Part shown: one piece after another, positions 33,251 to 47,116 of the stretch
Layout of the letters: every line of letters starts with the position of its first letter
Numbering within the stretch: the first letter of the stretch is position 1
Assembly (NCBI RefSeq): GCF_038397715.1
Contig: NZ_CP151633.1
Location: forward strand, 3,224,001-3,288,000
Source of the DNA: Microbacterium sp. LWO14-1.2
GTDB taxonomy: Bacteria; Actinomycetota; Actinomycetes; Actinomycetales; Microbacteriaceae
Reading direction: 5' to 3'
DNA: 64,000 nt
Notes under the pieces: generated by a model
The model's input: only the letters and a program-made list of their open reading frames with translations
Told to the model about the DNA's origin: nothing
Database searches by the model: none
Position numbers and translations under genes: made by a program

Positions 33251-33316
<66 letters not shown>

Positions 33317-33327
<11 letters not shown>

Positions 33328-33344
33328 GAGGGGCTGTTGGCAAT
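33317..33344 (+). other. attL: tRNA-Pro 3' end plus left arm of the island
   Basis: CAGCCC (33317-33322), 8 bp GACCAGAG, then GGGCTGTTGGCAAT (33331-33344). The last 14 bases are the perfect inverted copy of ATTGCCAACAGCCC at the right end. Confidence 0.85.
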
Positions 33345-33570: not shown

Positions 33571-35517
33571 TCACGTGCGCATCGGTGTCAGGGTGACCTG
33601 ATCCATTGTGTCGGGCGACGTGGTTGTCGATGACGATGTTCGACTGCGTCGAGGGACGCTGAGGTCGCCGTTGCCCATGGTCTTCATGTAGCGGTTGGCC
33701 CAGACACGGTCGCGGCGACGGATGGTGCGGACACGTGGAGTCGTGCGCGCTCGTTCGGTTTCTTGGTCGCTGAAGAACGCTGCGATCTTCCGGATGTTGT
33801 GGGCCACGATGAGGAGCGTGACGAGGATCTGTGCGGCGGTGATTCCGCGCACGCGGCGGCGACCGGGGGTCTCGATGTCCGCGTCGCCCGATGCCTTGAG
33901 CTGATGGTTTCCGGACTCGACAGTGTTGCGGGCGTGGTCGTGGAAGGTCTCCCACTCTTCGGTGCCGTAGTCGAAAGCCTGTTGTGGGGCCTGCATCTCA
34001 GTGAGGTCGAACGCGGCCGAGTGCTGCTTGCAGATGGTGTCGAGGAACTCTTCTTCAAGAGTTTCGGGCTCGACCTCGGGGCGGGCCTTCTTGGCAGCGT
34101 TGACCATCATCTCGCGGAGAGGGCAGGTCACAGTCGGGCTGGGGCCGAGGACCGGGCAGCACAGCATCACCTTTCCATCGGGGGTCTTCGCTTTGTCTTT
34201 GACGTGCAGCTGGAAGGCCTTTCGCTCTGCGATGCGGGCGCGGTGAGTTTGAACGTCGATCACGTCGCCGAGACGATCCGGTGTGGCGTTCAGGAGCGGC
34301 TTCGGCGTGCTCGGGCAGTAGACGTCGCCTTCGACGAACAGAGCGCCGTGCTGGCCACCCTTCACCCCGACACGCTCGGAGCGGTAGTCCGTGGACGGGG
34401 TGAAGCCGGTCTTCAACGCTGGCTTCAGAAGCCGGAACGGCTTGGCATTGGCCCAGTACTGCTTATCGGCATCGGCGATGCCCGGCGCGAGTCCGAGGGT
34501 CGCTGCCGACGCGAGCAGGAGCGCGGCTTCTTCGGCGACTTCCATGTTCGGGATGCTTAGCGACGCCGCAACAACGAGGCTTGGGAAGCGCTTGGACCCG
34601 GGCTGCTCGGCGTCGACGCGGACGGCGAGGTTCGCTACCCATCCCCAGTCGTAGTCCGCCGACTTCCCGCGTTCAGGTGCGGTCTGGTCAATCTCGCCCT
34701 TCTGGTTGTCGACGCGCTCAGCTTTGCCGCTCTTAACGTGCCACCCGGCGAAGGCGTCCACGGGGCCAGGGGAGAGCTCGCCGAAATCGGCTCCCTTCTC
34801 AGCCTTGACCTTGCTCGCGAGGTGCTTGCGGCTGTACCCCTTGGTGGTGGGTGTGCCGATGTAGGTCTGGTCGAAGGAGAGATCTAACTGCTTCGAGGCC
34901 CGACGCACAGCTCGCGGCTGGAGCATGAACGTCATACGGATAAACAGGCGGGTGTACTCGTCCAGACGCGCCTTGTACTTCTCCGCGCGCTCTGCGTCGT
35001 GATTGCGGAGGATCTCCTGGATCTGAGTGTGGGTCTTGGCGGTGTAGAGCTCCTGCGGGTAGGGGTCCATCAGGGTCTTCATTCGGTGGAACGCGCGAAT
35101 CGTGTTCGAGTACCAGCGCTTCGTCGAGGCGACATGGGTTGCGAAGCTCGTCGGCGTCTCAGGCAAGTCGAGGAGCGCGCTGGACTTCGTGGAGAGCCTG
35201 TGCTGCAGTACGTACGCGGCCCGCCTGATGTGCAGCGGTGCCCCTTCCTGGGCAAGAAGGAGGAGCGCGGTGAGCAGCGCGCGGTATGAGATCCTCGCGG
35301 GTCGGCCGCCCATTCCGTCGCGGTTGGCATCCTCGGCGGCCCAGCGGTCGAGCTGCTCGAGGATACCGGACTGCCGCACGCGGGTTTCTGCCAAGGTCAC
35401 AGTGGCGTCGTCGAACTGCTGGAGGTCACGGCCGCGGCCGAGGACCTCGCGCTCGGTGATGCCGCACTCGTCGTTGTCGTCGAAGGCGCGGTAATAGTCG
35501 ATGTCAACGGAGGTCAT
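33571..35517 (-). CDS. Transposase-like protein with probable DDE domain
   Basis: 648 residues from ATG 35517. I do not recognise a named IS family with certainty. Three acidic positions could form a DDE triad: Asp in LDLSFDQTYIG (about 213), Asp in GIADADKQYWA (about 347), and Glu in TVESGNHQLKAS (about 534), the last resembling the E-region of IS1182/IS4-like transposases. A conserved CCPVLGPSPTVTCPLR segment has a possible metal-binding Cys pattern. It follows the recombinase remnant with stop and start overlapping (TAATG), so the two are translationally coupled. No terminal inverted repeats tight around this gene were found; it may be a recombination partner of the integrase and not an independent IS. 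Confidence 0.6.
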   Translation of the reverse strand: MTSVDIDYYRAFDDNDECGITEREVLGRGRDLQQFDDATVTLAETRVRQSGILEQLDRWAAEDANRDGMGGRPARISYRALLTALLLLAQEGAPLHIRRAAYVLQHRLSTKSSALLDLPETPTSFATHVASTKRWYSNTIRAFHRMKTLMDPYPQELYTAKTHTQIQEILRNHDAERAEKYKARLDEYTRLFIRMTFMLQPRAVRRASKQLDLSFDQTYIGTPTTKGYSRKHLASKVKAEKGADFGELSPGPVDAFAGWHVKSGKAERVDNQKGEIDQTAPERGKSADYDWGWVANLAVRVDAEQPGSKRFPSLVVAASLSIPNMEVAEEAALLLASAATLGLAPGIADADKQYWANAKPFRLLKPALKTGFTPSTDYRSERVGVKGGQHGALFVEGDVYCPSTPKPLLNATPDRLGDVIDVQTHRARIAERKAFQLHVKDKAKTPDGKVMLCCPVLGPSPTVTCPLREMMVNAAKKARPEVEPETLEEEFLDTICKQHSAAFDLTEMQAPQQAFDYGTEEWETFHDHARNTVESGNHQLKASGDADIETPGRRRVRGITAAQILVTLLIVAHNIRKIAAFFSDQETERARTTPRVRTIRRRDRVWANRYMKTMGNGDLSVPRRSRTSSSTTTSPDTMDQVTLTPMRT

Positions 35518-36053
35518 TAGGCGACCTCCGCTCCGACGAGCTGAGCAGTGAAGTCAGCGACATCCAGCACGTTCGCGTGCTCGTAGTACCGGACGAGCGT
35601 CGAGTAGTGCTCGAAGCCGGCCACTTCACGGAGAACGGGCAGCGGCACGTTGTTGTTGATGTGGTGCAGCAGCCACGCCGCACGAAGGGCCGCAGGAGTG
35701 GGACGGACGGGCGCGGGGTGGTCGGTGAGGAAGGACTGGATGATGCGGGGCGGGTACTCGGCGATCCACGGGCCCCGAAACACACGCTGGTCGGAGTCGG
35801 AGTCGGAGTCGGAGTCGGAGTCGGAGTCGGAGTCGGAGTCGGAGTCGGAGTCGGAGTCGGAGTCGGAGTCGGCGCGGCCGTCGATGCTGCGCAGCAGCAC
35901 GCGAGCCCAGGCGTGACGCACCGGCACCCGTCGGGCGCGCTTGCCGAGGACCTCGACGCAGACGATGTTGCCGTCGCGGTGGATGTCGGCGACGCGGACG
36001 TTGACGATCTCGGCCGCGGTCAGTCCGGCGCCGCCGGCGAGACCGAGGAGAGC
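35517..36053 (-). pseudogene. 5'-truncated tyrosine recombinase (integrase) with (Ser-Asp) repeat
   Basis: The frame is open from just after an in-frame TAG (36054-36056) to TAA at 35517. It begins ALLGLAGGAGLTAAEIVNVR, the middle of a tyrosine-recombinase catalytic domain, so the N-terminal core-binding half is missing. In this region the usual catalytic Arg (G-x-R-x-x-E) is replaced by Thr. The C-terminal part LRAAWLLHHINNNVPLPVLR, then FEHYSTLVRYYEH, keeps Arg and the Tyr nucleophile position. A 26-residue (Ser-Asp)13 tract splits the domain. It may be a decayed integrase of the island, or a member of a divergent recombinase-like family with a lost start. An internal ATG at 35927 could still give a short product. 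Confidence 0.65.
35791..35870. repeat. Hexanucleotide microsatellite, 13 x TCGGAG
   Basis: Thirteen perfect TCGGAG units plus a partial TC. On the minus strand they encode (Ser-Asp)13 inside the recombinase remnant. Changes in copy number keep the frame. Confidence 0.97.
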
Positions 36054-36948: not shown

Positions 36949-38331
36949 ATGGCGAACACCTTGACCGCCGACGATGTGCGCGTGGGATACATCGACACCC
37001 CCGACCTCGAGGAAGCGTCCGTCGCCGCTGCCCTGGTCTCCGATCACGCAGGGGCGTTGCTGCGCATTCCCTATGTGCGAAACCCGAACGCCCCCGGCAC
37101 GGGCCGTTTCAGCACGGTCAGCCAATGGTTCCATCACAACGAGTCCGCGATCCCGTCGACCATCATCTTCACGGACGCTCGAGGAAGCGTCACGTTGAAC
37201 GGGGTACGTTTCGCGGGCTCCTCCGGTGGCGCGGTAGACGAAGGTCGCCTTCGCGCGAGAACTGTGATCTTCAATAATCCCCGCACGTTCCAAGACGAAT
37301 ATCGGGTGGGGCAGGTCACCTCGATGATTGACGGGCTGCAGGAGTTCGCAGGCTTCCGCCCCGTCTCCCTCGACGTCACCCGTGTAGATAACAGGAACCG
37401 AGTCACGGTGGTCGTGGAAGCTGACGAACACGTGGATTGGGAGGTCGACGACGTTGCCTACGAGGTGAGCGCGAATGCGTCATGGGAGGGCCAGGAAGGT
37501 ACACGCTTCACCATTCACAACGCCGCCCCGCTGCTCACGACCACGATCCGGAACGGAGCCACGCCGGCAGAACACCTTCAGGCCCAACGCCCCATTCGCG
37601 CTCTGCTGATCCTCGCTCACGGCCGGGCCCTGTTCTGGCGCCAGCATCTTCTGCGCGACGAAGAGTTCCCCACGTGGATGATGGCGGGTGAACCGCAGGC
37701 TGCGAGCTCGGTACCCGTGCAGTTAGCGGCGACGGTGCGTGAGGCGGAACGCACTCCCACTCCGGACCGTGACCTTGTGTCTCCACTGCTCAGCCTCTCC
37801 GACGTCGGTCCGGACGGGATGTCACGGTGGGTGCGCCTGTATGGCGAGGACAACTTCCGTCGAGCGGTGGAACCGGTGGTCGAGGTGTTGAATGGGGCGA
37901 CGAAGTTCCTCGAGCCTCAGCTGATGATGCTTGCCATCAGCTTGGACCGATTCGGGGCACACAGTTTCGCAGACGGTCGCCAGCGTCGGCTGTCTCAGAC
38001 GATCCTCCGCTGCATCGAACGTGCGAACCTGGACTGGCCGAGTATTGGCCCTCGGGTGGGAATTGCAAAGGCTCTCGCGAACATGAACAACGACCTGAAA
38101 CATCCCGACCGTGGCAGCTACCCGGACGGGGATGCCTTAGCGGTCATGGTCGATCTGGCGAAGGTCATAGCTCGGGCGCAGCTGTTCCCACTGTTGGCGG
38201 TGCCTGACGAGCGCCGCGAGAGCTTTTTCGGGTGGGGTGATGCGGGCAGCGCCGTCCGGGCATTCGGGGCGGCCGGGATCACCGTCGACGAAGCCGGAGC
38301 GATCCATCGGCGGGCATCGTCTTCGGACTGA
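36949..38331 (+). CDS. Possible ApeA-like HEPN protein
   Basis: 460 residues from ATG 36949, with AGAGGA 9 nt before. The N-terminal 210 residues are beta-rich and begin with a short VGYIDTPDLEEASVAAAL segment similar to the start of ApeA-type proteins. The C-terminal 160 residues are helical and contain MNNDLKHPDRGSYPD near residue 380, the place where HEPN proteins carry R-X4-6-H; here the Arg is replaced by Asn-Asp before the Lys-His. ApeA is a known single-gene antiphage protein acting by abortive infection. Assignment is by overall layout; the altered motif makes nuclease activity uncertain. Confidence 0.5.
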   Translation: MANTLTADDVRVGYIDTPDLEEASVAAALVSDHAGALLRIPYVRNPNAPGTGRFSTVSQWFHHNESAIPSTIIFTDARGSVTLNGVRFAGSSGGAVDEGRLRARTVIFNNPRTFQDEYRVGQVTSMIDGLQEFAGFRPVSLDVTRVDNRNRVTVVVEADEHVDWEVDDVAYEVSANASWEGQEGTRFTIHNAAPLLTTTIRNGATPAEHLQAQRPIRALLILAHGRALFWRQHLLRDEEFPTWMMAGEPQAASSVPVQLAATVREAERTPTPDRDLVSPLLSLSDVGPDGMSRWVRLYGEDNFRRAVEPVVEVLNGATKFLEPQLMMLAISLDRFGAHSFADGRQRRLSQTILRCIERANLDWPSIGPRVGIAKALANMNNDLKHPDRGSYPDGDALAVMVDLAKVIARAQLFPLLAVPDERRESFFGWGDAGSAVRAFGAAGITVDEAGAIHRRASSSD

Positions 38332-41155: not shown

Positions 41156-41507
41156 TCAAGAGCTCCATGCCCACGCATCATGTCGAGCTTCCCGCAACGC
41201 CTCTTCGAGGCGTCCTCCGTATAGCCGTGAGATGTTTCGGGGCGGATGCTTTTCGAGCAATGCGACGTTCAACCACTGCGCCCAGGTCCACGGGCCGTTT
41301 ACCCCGGTCCTCGACTATCTTCCCATCCTGGACCTGAAACGACGGGAACAGGTAGATGTCGTCCTCAGTGTGCAGCATGAGGAGGCGGAGATCGTTCCCC
41401 GCTTTCATGGCCTCGGCCTCGGTCCACCGGAGGGTGCGGGCCATGCTCGACACCGTGTAGCAAGGACCGACGATCTCAGCCCACTGGCTCGGCTCTTCCT
41501 CAGTCAT
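41156..41507 (-). pseudogene. Small MbcA/Xre-antitoxin-like gene broken by a frameshift
   Basis: ATG 41507 overlaps the phosphoesterase stop by 8 nt. The first frame gives WAEIVGPCYTVSSMARTLRW and LLMLHTEDDIYLFPSFQVQD, a pattern I associate with small antitoxin-like partners. Past about 41310 this frame turns into Arg-rich noise, while the next frame carries the expected ending: WTWAQWLNVALLEKHPPRN, then YGGRLEEALREARHDAWAW, stop at 41156. One base lost or gained near 41300-41315 explains this. It could be a real mutation, an assembly error or, less likely, programmed frameshifting. Confidence 0.65.
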
Positions 41508-42501
41508 GAGTTCTCGCCGAGGGTGCGGGTGTGGCGTCGGCGGACGTCTTCGAGGATCTCTCGAGTCCGCGAACTCCGTCGACGTAGTCCCGAGCGTCCC
41601 GAAGCGCTTGAGCGGAGGGCCTCAATCCGTCCAGGACTCCTGAGTGCAGGGACTCGGCGACGCCGTTCATCCGCTGCTCCCGCGTGCGACGAGAACCGTC
41701 GTCGTCGTTGGCAAGTCCGCGGAGTATCGCCAGGCTCGGGGTGGCCATCCGCAGGTTGTTCATATCGAGTATTCCGAGGTTCCACTCATGGCCCTCTCGC
41801 CCGAGGCTCGCCACACGACGGCCATCCGCAGTCTTCCCGCCTGCCCCGACATGCAGATGTCCGTGCGCGAGAAGTTCTGGGCGCACGGCGTCCCACACCT
41901 GGCTGACCCGTGCGCGGGATGCCGCGGACGCCTCCAACGCCGCCTTCGGGAAGCGGTGCGGGTTCGTGCGGAGGATTTCACGGACGCGACGAACGGGGGT
42001 GTTGGCCGGGGACTCGTGGGTGAGCATCAGGTCGGCGGGGCCGCCGGCGATGGCGTCGGCGACGTGCTCGTCGGTGATGGCTTCGTCTGGCCACCAGGTC
42101 AACCCTTCGATCCTCGACTGGCGGTCGACAGAGGAGGCGCCACCGAGCGAGAGAACTGAACGCCCACCGATGGTGAGGCGCGCTGGTCGGGGGAGTAGCC
42201 ACACGAGCTTAGAGACCCGCACGGCTTCGCCGGGGTACTTGGTCATGAGCGTGGTGATCTCGCCCCACGGTTCATGATTCCCTCCGGTCACGTAGATACC
42301 TGTGATGTCCGTCTCAGCGAGAGCCTCGTCGATTTCGTCCGCGGGCATCCACCAGTCGCCGAGCTGAAGGATGCTCACCACGGCCGGTGCGAGGTGCGGG
42401 AGCGCCCGCGACAGCATCCGGATCCAACCGACGTTGCCGTGGACGTCCCCCAATACGGCGACTCGCTGGTCCGGCAATGTGATGTCGGCTGTGTGTGCCA
42501 T
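41500..42501 (-). CDS. Calcineurin-like metallophosphoesterase
   Basis: 333 residues from ATG 42501. All metal-binding blocks are present: GDVHGN (residues 18-23), LGDWW, GNHEPW, THES and GHLHVG. Such proteins hydrolyse phosphomonoesters or diesters, including nucleic acids and cyclic nucleotides. The C-terminal 80 residues are a helical, polar extension. It forms an operon with the frameshifted small gene, whose start lies inside its end. This pairing resembles toxin-antitoxin gene order, but no toxin activity can be claimed. Confidence 0.8.
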   Translation of the reverse strand: MAHTADITLPDQRVAVLGDVHGNVGWIRMLSRALPHLAPAVVSILQLGDWWMPADEIDEALAETDITGIYVTGGNHEPWGEITTLMTKYPGEAVRVSKLVWLLPRPARLTIGGRSVLSLGGASSVDRQSRIEGLTWWPDEAITDEHVADAIAGGPADLMLTHESPANTPVRRVREILRTNPHRFPKAALEASAASRARVSQVWDAVRPELLAHGHLHVGAGGKTADGRRVASLGREGHEWNLGILDMNNLRMATPSLAILRGLANDDDGSRRTREQRMNGVAESLHSGVLDGLRPSAQALRDARDYVDGVRGLERSSKTSADATPAPSARTHD

Positions 42502-43060
42502 CACGTACACGGGCGTCTCCCATCTAGATGGCGACGCGACGGATCCCGCTCGCGCGCCCGGTGAGGATCGGCCTCCCATGTGGTTAAAGAACAAGCACAG
42601 AACTATCGCACGACTTGTGGTTGAGTCGGCGAAACGTGCACACTATCGACATGTCCGGTTCGAGCGGGTTGCTACGAGATGAGGACCAACTCATGGGCAC
42701 GCGCTATTAGGGGGGACCGTTTCGACCACCTTCCGCGTTGGACCGAGTCTCCCGGCGAGTGTGGCGGGCGCGCGGGGTGGATCGAGTGGCCCGGGTTTGA
42801 ATGGCGCGAGGAGATGTGTACCAAGCCAGAGATACCCCGTAGGGTGATGCGGGAGGGCGCGCCGATGTATCCGCCCCTACGGGAGACTGTCGCGTTTGCG
42901 ACTCAAATCCGTCTCGCGCTATGCTCGCTCCAAAGGGTGCATCGGGATCAGTCCCCGCCTGGTTCGTGACCAGAGCACTCACAGAGCAGGGTGATTCAGG
43001 TTCGAGGCCTGGCGTCTCAATTGAGGAGATGTAGCTCAACAGGAAGAGCGCCCTCTTTTT
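42502..43060. other. 559-bp gene-free stretch with tRNA debris
   Basis: No convincing protein gene. The left part (42.5-42.9 kb) has only short open frames without ribosome sites. The right 65 bases contain two tRNA-like halves (next entry). A possible promoter for the leftward phosphoesterase must also lie here, but I see no clear box. Confidence 0.6.
42996..43060 (+). pseudogene. tRNA remnants: a 3' half followed by a 5' half
   Basis: Positions 42996-43012 form a T-arm (TCAGG-TTCGAGG-CCTGG) followed by CGTCTCAA, an acceptor 3' strand with discriminator. Four bases later, 43025-43031 GGAGATG, TA, D-arm GCTC-AACAGGAA-GAGC and the start of an anticodon arm with a T-run (Lys TTT-like) form a tRNA 5' half. 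The two acceptor strands pair at 6 of 7 positions. The 5' half breaks off where the next gene ends. Either debris of a tRNA array or, less likely, a permuted tRNA. Confidence 0.5.
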
Positions 43061-44498: not shown

Positions 44499-45254
44499 AT
44501 GGAGTACATCGACGACGACGACCTGATGACGATTCGCAGACGTCTCGCTACGGGGGAGCTCGCAAGTCAAGATTTCGGTGCTACCGATCCGCTGAGGCCG
44601 AACGGTCTTGCGAGCGCAATCGCTCGCCAGACGGCAGGGCTCGGCAGCTACCGAAAGTACGACACCGTCGCCACAGTCGCAGCCACTCTCTTCTACGGCC
44701 TCACACTCAATCACCCGTTCGAGAACGGAAACAAACGGACAGCACTCGTCACGATGCTTGTGTTCCTGCAGAGAAATCGAACTCTGCTGGTGGGAACCAC
44801 CGAGGACGAACTTTACGAAATGGCTACAGGCGTGGCGGCTCACGAGTTTCCGATTCCTGAGGGGATCGAGCGCGACGCCGACTCCGAGGTCGCCGCCATC
44901 GGGGCCTGGCTGAACGAACGCACTCGGCCTTTGGGTCGCGGAGACAAGAACCTGAAGTTCAAGGACTTTCGCATTCAGCTCGAGTCGCAGGGTTGCGAGT
45001 TCGCGCTGCCGAACAAGAACTTTGTGAAGGTGTACCGGCGCACAGACGAAGGCGAGTTCAGCGCACGCATGGGCTACCCGCGCGCTCACTTCACAGTCCC
45101 GGTGCAGGAAGTGAAGCGCGTTCGCAAGCTGCTCAGGTTGGACGAGGCGCACGGATTTGACTCTGGTGCCTTCTACGAAGACGACCTCGACGCCGTGGTG
45201 GACGGCTTCGTCAATACTTATCGGCAGGTACTGGATCGACTGGCGCTAACTTGA
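44499..45254 (+). CDS. Fic/Doc-family protein with extra C-terminal domain
   Basis: 251 residues from ATG 44499. The Fic core motif is intact as NHPFENGNKRTALVTMLVFL (His72, Asn78, Lys79, Arg80). The N-terminal DFGATDPLRPNGLASAIARQ and the GNK form point to Doc-type toxins, which modify translation factors (Doc phosphorylates EF-Tu). Residues about 150-217 (KFKDFRIQLESQGCEFALPN then KVYRRTDEG, RAHFTVPVQEVKRVRKLL) are an added domain with a helix-strand-strand-strand-helix feel like HicA/YcfA RNA-binding toxins. No antitoxin is visible. Followed after 48 bp by DUF6615 and the glycosylase, all in one direction. Confidence 0.8.
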   Translation: MEYIDDDDLMTIRRRLATGELASQDFGATDPLRPNGLASAIARQTAGLGSYRKYDTVATVAATLFYGLTLNHPFENGNKRTALVTMLVFLQRNRTLLVGTTEDELYEMATGVAAHEFPIPEGIERDADSEVAAIGAWLNERTRPLGRGDKNLKFKDFRIQLESQGCEFALPNKNFVKVYRRTDEGEFSARMGYPRAHFTVPVQEVKRVRKLLRLDEAHGFDSGAFYEDDLDAVVDGFVNTYRQVLDRLALT

Positions 45255-45302
45255 ACTGACAGATCGTCGCGGTGCTAGACCTCGAACGAGGGTCGCGGAA
45301 GG

Positions 45303-46316
45303 ATGCACTGCGTAGTATTCATGGGAGCTCCGGGCGAACAGATGAACGCAATTGCAAAGGCATTCAAGCACGCACGAACGGTCGCTTGTGCTCACATGGC
45401 TGCTTGCGAGGCGGTGAACCTTTTCTGGGGTGAAACTGCGATCACAGAAATGCTCCTCGCCCACACCGCGCCGGCGGTGACCGTGGTCCCATTCACCCAG
45501 CGGGCAGAGGCGCTGAGCGGGGCCGATTGGATCTGGTGGTGGGTGGACGGATCTGCCGCTTACGGGATGCTTGTGCAGGCGAAGCGTGTCGTCATTAGCG
45601 GCGAGCATTGGAACTTTAAGTTCGACTATCGTTCTAAGCGCTCTGCGCGACTGCAACGCGAAGTGCTTGTCGACACCGCGTCGGCTCTCGGGGTTCTCCC
45701 CGTACACGCCCTTTACCTCGGAACTGGAGAGTACAGAAGTTGGGCTCGATGTGCTGGAGGTCACCAACCAATTCGGTGCCCGGAGTGCACTCGCAGGACC
45801 ATCTCGCTCATGCCCGCTCTCCTCGCCTCAGACCAACTCGTAGACGACGCACCCTCAACTTACGAATGGTCGGTGGCCTTGGAGGACCTGTGGACCCCGC
45901 CTCCGGGCGGTGCCCTTCTTATACCGGCGGTGGAGCGGGCTATGTCGCCTGAGCTCAAGAGCTTCCTCAAGAGCGACAGTTCTACCGGTGTGCGCGCCGT
46001 CGCCCGGTCGATGGTCGACAGGGTCCTTAAGGCCGGTGCTGGCCAGTTCTCTGCAGCCATGACAGAGACTGCTCCGCCCTCGGCAGGTGCTCACGACCAC
46101 CTTGGCAGCATCTTCGAGAACTTGCCCGCCGACGCCATGCACGGCGGTATCCGATACTTCGACCACGTGCTCACTCCGCTGAAGCACTCACCACCGCCAT
46201 ACGTGCTTGACATCATCGCGGGCGACGTGGATGACGATGCGCTTCAGGCGCAGATGCCAGAAACCGTCGGCGGCATCACCGTCGTTCAGACGCCTCGCGT
46301 TCGCGAAGAGCGGTGA
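45303..46316 (+). CDS. DUF6615 family protein, putative PD-(D/E)XK nuclease
   Basis: 337 residues from ATG 45303, GCGGAAGG just before. Residues 44-95 contain E-T-A-I-T-E, GADWIWWWVDG and MLVQAKR: an acidic helix, an Asp (75) on a strand, then Q-x-K (92-94) on the next strand. This is the order of PD-(D/E)XK nucleases of the Mrr-like Q-x-K type. Cys150, His154, Cys159 and Cys162 (RCAGGHQPIRCPEC) may bind zinc. I believe it belongs to DUF6615; the nuclease reading is mine. The C-terminal 150 residues are of unknown type. The glycosylase gene starts 7 nt after its stop. Confidence 0.6.
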   Translation: MHCVVFMGAPGEQMNAIAKAFKHARTVACAHMAACEAVNLFWGETAITEMLLAHTAPAVTVVPFTQRAEALSGADWIWWWVDGSAAYGMLVQAKRVVISGEHWNFKFDYRSKRSARLQREVLVDTASALGVLPVHALYLGTGEYRSWARCAGGHQPIRCPECTRRTISLMPALLASDQLVDDAPSTYEWSVALEDLWTPPPGGALLIPAVERAMSPELKSFLKSDSSTGVRAVARSMVDRVLKAGAGQFSAAMTETAPPSAGAHDHLGSIFENLPADAMHGGIRYFDHVLTPLKHSPPPYVLDIIAGDVDDDALQAQMPETVGGITVVQTPRVREER

Positions 46317-46323
46317 GATTTCG

Positions 46324-47016
46324 ATGGCCAGTGTGAACGACTACGCCCGACTGCCGGAGGACTGGGCGCGTGCGGTCGCCGCCACCGGATACGACCTTGC
46401 CCAGGTCTACGCTGCTCTGGACAACATATACGGTGGTCCGGGAACGCATCCAATATCACCACCAGCACGCGCGGACGTCTTCCGAGCGTTTCACCTGACA
46501 CCACTTGCGGACGTGCGAGTGGTCATCATTGGCGAAGACCCATACCCTGACCCGAGCCAAGCCCACGGACTGGCATTCTCCACGCCACCCACCTACCTGG
46601 GCGAACGTCCGACTTCCCTCGGGCGCATCTTCGGCGCCCTGAGAAGGGACCTAGGTTTGCTGCCTTCACAAGACGACCTGAGCCCATGGGCGCAGCGCGG
46701 CGTGTTGCTCCTCAACGTGGCGCTGACTCACCGCGCGGGAAGCGCTATGCCAGACCTGCCCACGTGGAGACGATTCACTGAAGAGGTGCTCGGCGTCATC
46801 GACCGTCAGCTTCAAGAGGTCGCCTGGCTGCTGTGGGGAGACTTCGCGAACGACATCGCCGACTCCGTTCCGCGCACCAACCAACGACACAGGACGTTCC
46901 GCAATGCTCATCCTCGGGCTGGGCGCGCGAAGCGGTCAACTCTTGCCCAGTCGCCGCCGTTTCTCGCAGCGAGCACATTCCTGGGAACCGATCCACATAT
47001 CTACTGGACCCTCTGA
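46324..47016 (+). CDS. Divergent family-1 uracil-DNA glycosylase
   Basis: 230 residues from ATG 46324. VRVVIIGEDPYPDPSQAHGL AFS matches the Ung water-activating loop, with Asp72, Tyr74 and Phe85 in the places of E. coli D64, Y66 and F77. VLLLNVALTHRAGSA gives Asn131 (N123, same 59-residue spacing), and NAHPRAG gives His196 (H187). Two pocket-loop residues differ: Gln63 is Glu71 and His67 is Pro75. So the fold and catalytic set are kept while the base pocket may be altered. It is not the core ung by context: it closes a cargo row in an island, directly behind DUF6615. DNA glycosylases are known antiphage effectors against modified DNA. Confidence 0.8.
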   Translation: MASVNDYARLPEDWARAVAATGYDLAQVYAALDNIYGGPGTHPISPPARADVFRAFHLTPLADVRVVIIGEDPYPDPSQAHGLAFSTPPTYLGERPTSLGRIFGALRRDLGLLPSQDDLSPWAQRGVLLLNVALTHRAGSAMPDLPTWRRFTEEVLGVIDRQLQEVAWLLWGDFANDIADSVPRTNQRHRTFRNAHPRAGRAKRSTLAQSPPFLAASTFLGTDPHIYWTL

Positions 47017-47097: not shown

Positions 47098-47116
47098 ATT
47101 GCCAACAGCCCGACCA
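47098..47116 (+). other. attR of the tRNA-Pro island
   Basis: ATTGCCAACAGCCC (47098-47111), perfect inverted copy of the left arm, followed by GACCA, so that CAGCCCGACCA repeats the tRNA-Pro 3' end. Confidence 0.85.

Follow-up and report, generated by a model that had tools for sequence, protein, structure and literature searches.

The window analysed here, a stretch of 64,000 nucleotides from Microbacterium sp. LWO14-1.2, whose genome is a single contig of 3.78 Mb, contains an island with three genes at its right end (Table 1). They encode a Fic/Doc protein, a DUF6615-like putative nuclease (gene B) and a divergent uracil-DNA glycosylase of the Ung fold (gene C), and it is B and C that we consider as a candidate antiviral pair. 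A first-pass annotation had described three same-direction genes, separated by gaps of 48 and 7 bp, at the end of a tRNA island, and both points are borne out. The island starts at a proline tRNA gene (tRNA-Pro), the sole tRNA that ARAGORN finds in the window, and an 11-bp copy of the 3' end of this tRNA begins 89 bp past gene C. In a second genome of the genus, G174, the same tRNA-Pro lies between orthologues of the window flanks (76% and 74%), with an unrelated 8.6 kb of ordinary-looking genes in between.

Table 1. Coordinates of the features at and around the candidate pair (positions within the window).
Feature	Position	Strand	Evidence and remarks
Gene B: DUF6615-like, PD-(D/E)XK-type predicted fold (D75, Q92-x-K94, E44/E49), Cys/His cluster C150-H154-C159-C162	45303..46316	+	Pfam, alignment, fold prediction
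Gene C: divergent Ung-fold uracil-DNA glycosylase	46324..47016	+	PF03167 7e-9; second Ung-type gene of the genome
Fic/Doc protein	44499..45254	+	PF02661 6e-10, DOC_P1 4e-15; neighbour, judged outside the pair
tRNA-Pro(GGG)	33251..33327	+	ARAGORN; same tRNA-Pro and orthologous flanks in G174; likely island attachment site
Possible integrase C-terminal remnant	35517..35927	-	PF00589 E=0.0041, 17.4 bits vs cut-off 27.1 (below)
11-bp direct copy of tRNA-Pro 3' end	47106..47116	+	Likely right island end

The DUF6615 label given to gene B stands, but marginally: its PF20320 match scores 24.2 bits (cut-off 23.8) over 103 of the 289 profile positions. The B proteins of genome G095 and plasmid pASPHE301, described below, score 21.8 (below the cut-off) and 11.5 bits, and the family was named nowhere in the literature searched. 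Because Met14 of the open reading frame aligns with the start of its relatives (Met in 63 of the 74 aligned rows, which comprise 69 of 120 listed relatives, four loci and the window sequence), the true start is probably at 45342, 87 bp past the Fic gene. The D...Q-x-K pattern picked out at first sight is present, and D75, Q92 and K94 are invariant in all 74 rows; we take the QxK to be Mrr-like in nature. The Cys/His cluster had gone unremarked. The predicted core has the order alpha-beta-beta-beta-alpha-beta and carries D75 and the QxK, resembling PD-(D/E)XK nucleases such as Hjc, RecU and EcoRV. It differs from these in having Gln where an acidic residue is usual, and in the Cys/His cluster and the C-terminal part. 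The predicted fold makes B a probable DNA-cutting enzyme. A search of Protein Data Bank sequences with the B profile returned no match below an E value of 0.23.

Gene C has the Ung fold and stands in a genome that also holds an ordinary Ung, which the first-pass annotation did not mention. It scores below the cut-offs of all five matched NCBIfam Ung models (at best 136.3 bits against 162, and 127.5 against 185.75 for TIGR00628). As first described, it retains the Ung catalytic set, with D64, Y66, F77, N123 and H187 all found in the window sequence; across 18 C-type rows the catalytic Asp is kept in 17 and the catalytic His, Tyr66 and Asn123 in every one. Two pocket changes had been singled out, Q63 to E and H67 to P, and both are present. 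The first is characteristic, with Glu in 17 of the 18 rows and Asn in the other, although a further member of the clade in genome G201 has Gln. The second is not distinctive: of 21 ordinary Ung loci examined, 16 could be read by motif and 12 of these have Pro here, as does the genome's own Ung; it was rejected as a sign of new specificity.

A further change, previously unnoticed, lies in the intercalation loop, which reads HPRAGRA in C as against HPSPLS, with an apical Leu or Phe, in Ung, leaving Gly in the Leu191 column. The apical residue is Gly or Ser in all 18 C-type rows, and Gly also in all six rows of a sister group. Glu63 thus marks the C clade, and loss of Leu191 marks this clade together with the wider, Gln-type sister group. 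By comparison with the family 1 Ung enzymes of M. tuberculosis, E. coli and C. burnetii, C differs in Glu63, in Gly/Ser191, in its sub-cut-off scores and in being an accessory enzyme beside a housekeeping Ung. In Ung, Tyr66 sterically bars 5-methyl pyrimidines, Asn123 picks uracil over cytosine and Leu191 enters the duplex (PMC3989344). Since C keeps Tyr66 and Asn123, uracil appears its likeliest target, rather than hypermodified bases; of the uracil or modified-base targets first envisaged, these residues speak for the former and against the latter. Lacking Leu191, C should therefore flip bases more weakly, or be aided by some other factor.

Both genes are rare. Among 366 genomes of the genus, C occurs in four and B in three, the B holders being the window genome, G095 (65%; presumably M. 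luteum) and G176 (36%). The two genes stand side by side in the window and again in G095, with the stop and start codons there sharing the sequence ATGA. The pair is retained between lineages 62–67% identical. By random draw, the probability that both of the two close-B genomes carry C is 9e-5, shared ancestry being disregarded. A third contig may hold the pair, as P0002 (B) and P0123 (C) both lie on contigs 27,452 long. A further candidate, P0003 and P0132 on contigs of 1,656, was rejected: with a combined coding length of 1,773 the two would not fit on the contig, and P0132 belongs to a different subclade. Beyond the genus, C was found once in a draw of 398 genomes from the family and once in 396 from the order, in both cases in the window genome itself, and the protein listing names one holder outside Microbacterium, a Salinibacterium (P0125). 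The best matches to C-type genes in plasmid and phage collections were all below 60% identity. Among viral contigs, the C alignment recovered 18 Ung-like loci of at most 42%, and the two patterns used for B recovered none.

On pASPHE301, a plasmid of the Arthrobacter group, a B relative (35%) is followed after 24 bp by a different glycosylase gene, of TDG/Mug type. It is annotated as belonging to the uracil-DNA glycosylase (UDG) family, scores 23.2 bits against PF03167 (below the cut-off of 24.3) and has relatives that some sources name TDG/Mug. Since the glycosylase beside this distant B is of another kind, the pairing of B with a glycosylase seems to have had at least two origins. In G1180, no B was recognised next to a 44% relative of the plasmid gene. 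Conjugative plasmids of the Arthrobacter group (L110, 4168-9517, and L108, 6070-11488) share a cassette with genes for a TDG/Mug-type glycosylase, a hypothetical protein, DUF1643 and DNA methylases; at its head stands a gene for either a DUF6615-like nuclease or a glycosylase resembling OGG.

The three other C loci lie among defence genes: in G095 near an OLD/GajA-like ATPase and type I M and S genes, in G278 near type I M and R genes and ShosA, and in G201 near Dsr1-like SIR2 genes, a NaeI-like enzyme and a NERD piece. The neighbours in the window island are weaker, consisting of an ApeA-like gene (below the cut-off) and the Fic gene with partial PADLOC matches to PDC-S23. As a control, one housekeeping-Ung neighbourhood of eight proteins, too small a sample to give a rate, had PADLOC matches to only two proteins, of ABC-ATPase type. 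B relatives adjoin Hma genes in L013 and L018, and ComF and DprA genes on three Streptomyces plasmids (L111, L120, L121), reminiscent of ShosTA. We also observed two overlapping open reading frames (L030, 7286-8559, minus strand) downstream of the G201 C-type gene; the second, of 233 aa and with no Pfam match, looks PD-(D/E)XK-like by eye (HEADVLVIP...FLVIEAKYW), and this is possibly another glycosylase-nuclease neighbourhood.

We tentatively propose that the tRNA-Pro island carries B and C as a defence module of two genes directed at DNA, a unit that may attack uracil-containing virus DNA. Acting apart from the housekeeping Ung, C would excise uracil from phage DNA, whether incoming or replicating, and so create abasic sites. 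B would then cut this DNA at or near such sites, or be guided or licensed by C, and the upstream Fic/Doc gene would be independent cargo. Of the joint system first suggested, the nuclease-type fold, the adjacency of B and C, the plasmid pair and the defence-gene setting are in favour, while the Fic component, the His67Pro argument, the modified-base target and most B loci speak against it.

DNA glycosylases as antiphage effectors, also noted at first pass, are indeed established: PMC11078745 and PMC13160076 describe Brig1, with a fold closest to family 4 UDG, which removes alpha-glucosyl-hydroxymethylcytosine, and Brig3, which removes 5-hydroxymethylcytosine and has a partner hydrolase, BapA. 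Like C, these are encoded in defence islands, Brig3 in an operon with its partner enzyme; going by their descriptions rather than by sequence comparison, they differ from the present pair, which has an Ung fold and a nuclease-type partner. Type IV (modification-dependent) restriction is alike in that the pair would act on DNA with non-standard bases without a protecting methylase, and differs in that recognition here is proposed to be by base excision. Base-excision restriction enzymes also turn abasic sites against foreign DNA and differ in that C is of the Ung fold (PMC10273834). No Ung-nuclease defence pair appeared in the titles and abstract openings of the literature on uracil-DNA glycosylase and defence, and a search on DUF1643 and glycosylase gave two unrelated matches. 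Antiphage glycosylases are recent (Brig1 2024, Brig3 a preprint of 2026), and an Ung-based nuclease-glycosylase pair would bring a second enzyme class into base-excision immunity.

Several observations weigh against a B-C unit. No Ung relative, as judged by similarity to C, lay near B at any of 19 genome-contig B loci, several of them cut by contig ends, and the 17 of these genomes that were searched yielded Ung-type matches only, of at most 41% identity. Of 24 plasmid records found to include a B relative, 14 were examined, and one of these has a glycosylase annotated beside B. On pZXY23, a sister plasmid of pASPHE301, the glycosylase (91%) and the genes downstream (92–96%) are kept and an OGG-like glycosylase replaces B. 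G278 and G201 have C, and neither B nor PF20320 was found in them. Chromosomal sequence close to the G095 pair is syntenic with 56-64 kb of the window, so that both pairs may stem from a single insertion. Other UDG families near B were tested only by BLAST with C and P0241, by a loose motif within 1.5 kb downstream and, for some neighbours, by Pfam, so that a divergent glycosylase could have escaped. Overall, B stands next to C in two genomes of the genus, next to another glycosylase on one plasmid, and without a glycosylase neighbour in most of the B loci examined.

Since B occurs without C and C without B, each must be able to work alone. It is quite possible that the two are independent defence-island genes that came to lie side by side, B alone being a type IV-like or structure-specific nuclease and C acting by itself, as the separate loci and the replacement of B in the otherwise matching pZXY23 cassette would suggest. 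The overlap of B and C in G095, the retention of the pair between diverged lineages and the second adjacency on pASPHE301 argue against this.

The loop change raises a more specific proposal. According to PMC3794593, Ugi and p56 capture the Ung loop by its apical Leu/Phe, and in vaccinia UDG an Arg at that position suffices to prevent the Ugi block. Uracil-DNA phages and their Ung inhibitors have been described, several such phages being without a known inhibitor (PMC10303552). Because C lacks the apical Leu that Ugi and p56 grip, it may be an inhibitor-proof second Ung kept for defence, although we consider this rather unlikely. Phages with uracil-DNA, or with uracil-bearing intermediates, can silence the housekeeping Ung with the DNA mimics Ugi, p56 and SAUGI; C would still make abasic sites, and B would convert these to breaks and perhaps also compensate for the absent intercalating Leu. 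The Gly or Ser, usually Arg-flanked, of C and its relatives would here act like the Arg, and the negative charge of Glu63, in most of the clade, should weaken binding of the acidic mimics; we infer both. If the change truly escapes Ugi-type inhibitors, it would be a host answer to them and a testable step in an arms race, and would explain a second Ung in the defence island of a genome with a good one. Further inhibitor-proof glycosylases would then be marked by this loop in the Gln-type sister group.

Ung is normally a repair enzyme, and C, with its Ung fold and retained catalytic residues, could be an accessory one that guards the host or mobile element from uracil or mends damage done by B, rather than a weapon. 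This is unlikely: the genome already has an ordinary Ung, and C is confined to a few genomes of the genus, with its other loci among defence genes. Excision of a hypermodified phage base in the manner of Brig1 and Brig3, with B cutting the abasic DNA, was the first-pass interpretation. It has the precedent of those enzymes and the altered pocket strand (Q63 to E) on its side, but we regard it as very improbable in view of the retention of Tyr66 and Asn123 in all 18 C-type rows and the Gln at position 63 in the G201 clade member.

That Fic, B and C together form one system, as their common strand and short gaps had suggested, is highly improbable. The Fic/Doc identity itself is confirmed by domain scores above the cut-off, and of 361 genomes searched in the genus, eight (including that of the window) have a match at E 1e-20. 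The two close relatives (73% in G067; 63% in G090, where a stop interrupts the gene) belong to genomes outside the B and C holders, with no B or C adjoining them, and in G095 the gene 5' of B encodes an ATPase. For these reasons Fic was rejected as a third component and appears not to belong to the B-C pair. No cognate antitoxin was recognised directly beside the Fic gene. A calcineurin-like phosphoesterase gene further upstream (41500-42594, minus strand) has a C-terminal stretch resembling the Fic antitoxin VbhA (23.4 bits, below the cut-off of 25.9), possibly the separated antitoxin of the island's Fic gene.

Elsewhere in the island, the gene at 36949-38331 (plus strand) has a weak match to the ApeA N-terminal domain (22.2 against 25.5 bits) and no PADLOC match, and is a candidate abortive-infection gene. 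At the same tRNA-Pro hotspot in G174, beside the DUF72 flank, lies a UdgX-like glycosylase gene (L093, 14858-15520, plus strand), so labelled from its KRRIH motif, which we take to be that of UdgX. Finally, a 14-bp inverted repeat, GGGCTGTTGGCAAT, is found at 33331-33344, by the tRNA, and at 47098-47111, at the far end of the island.
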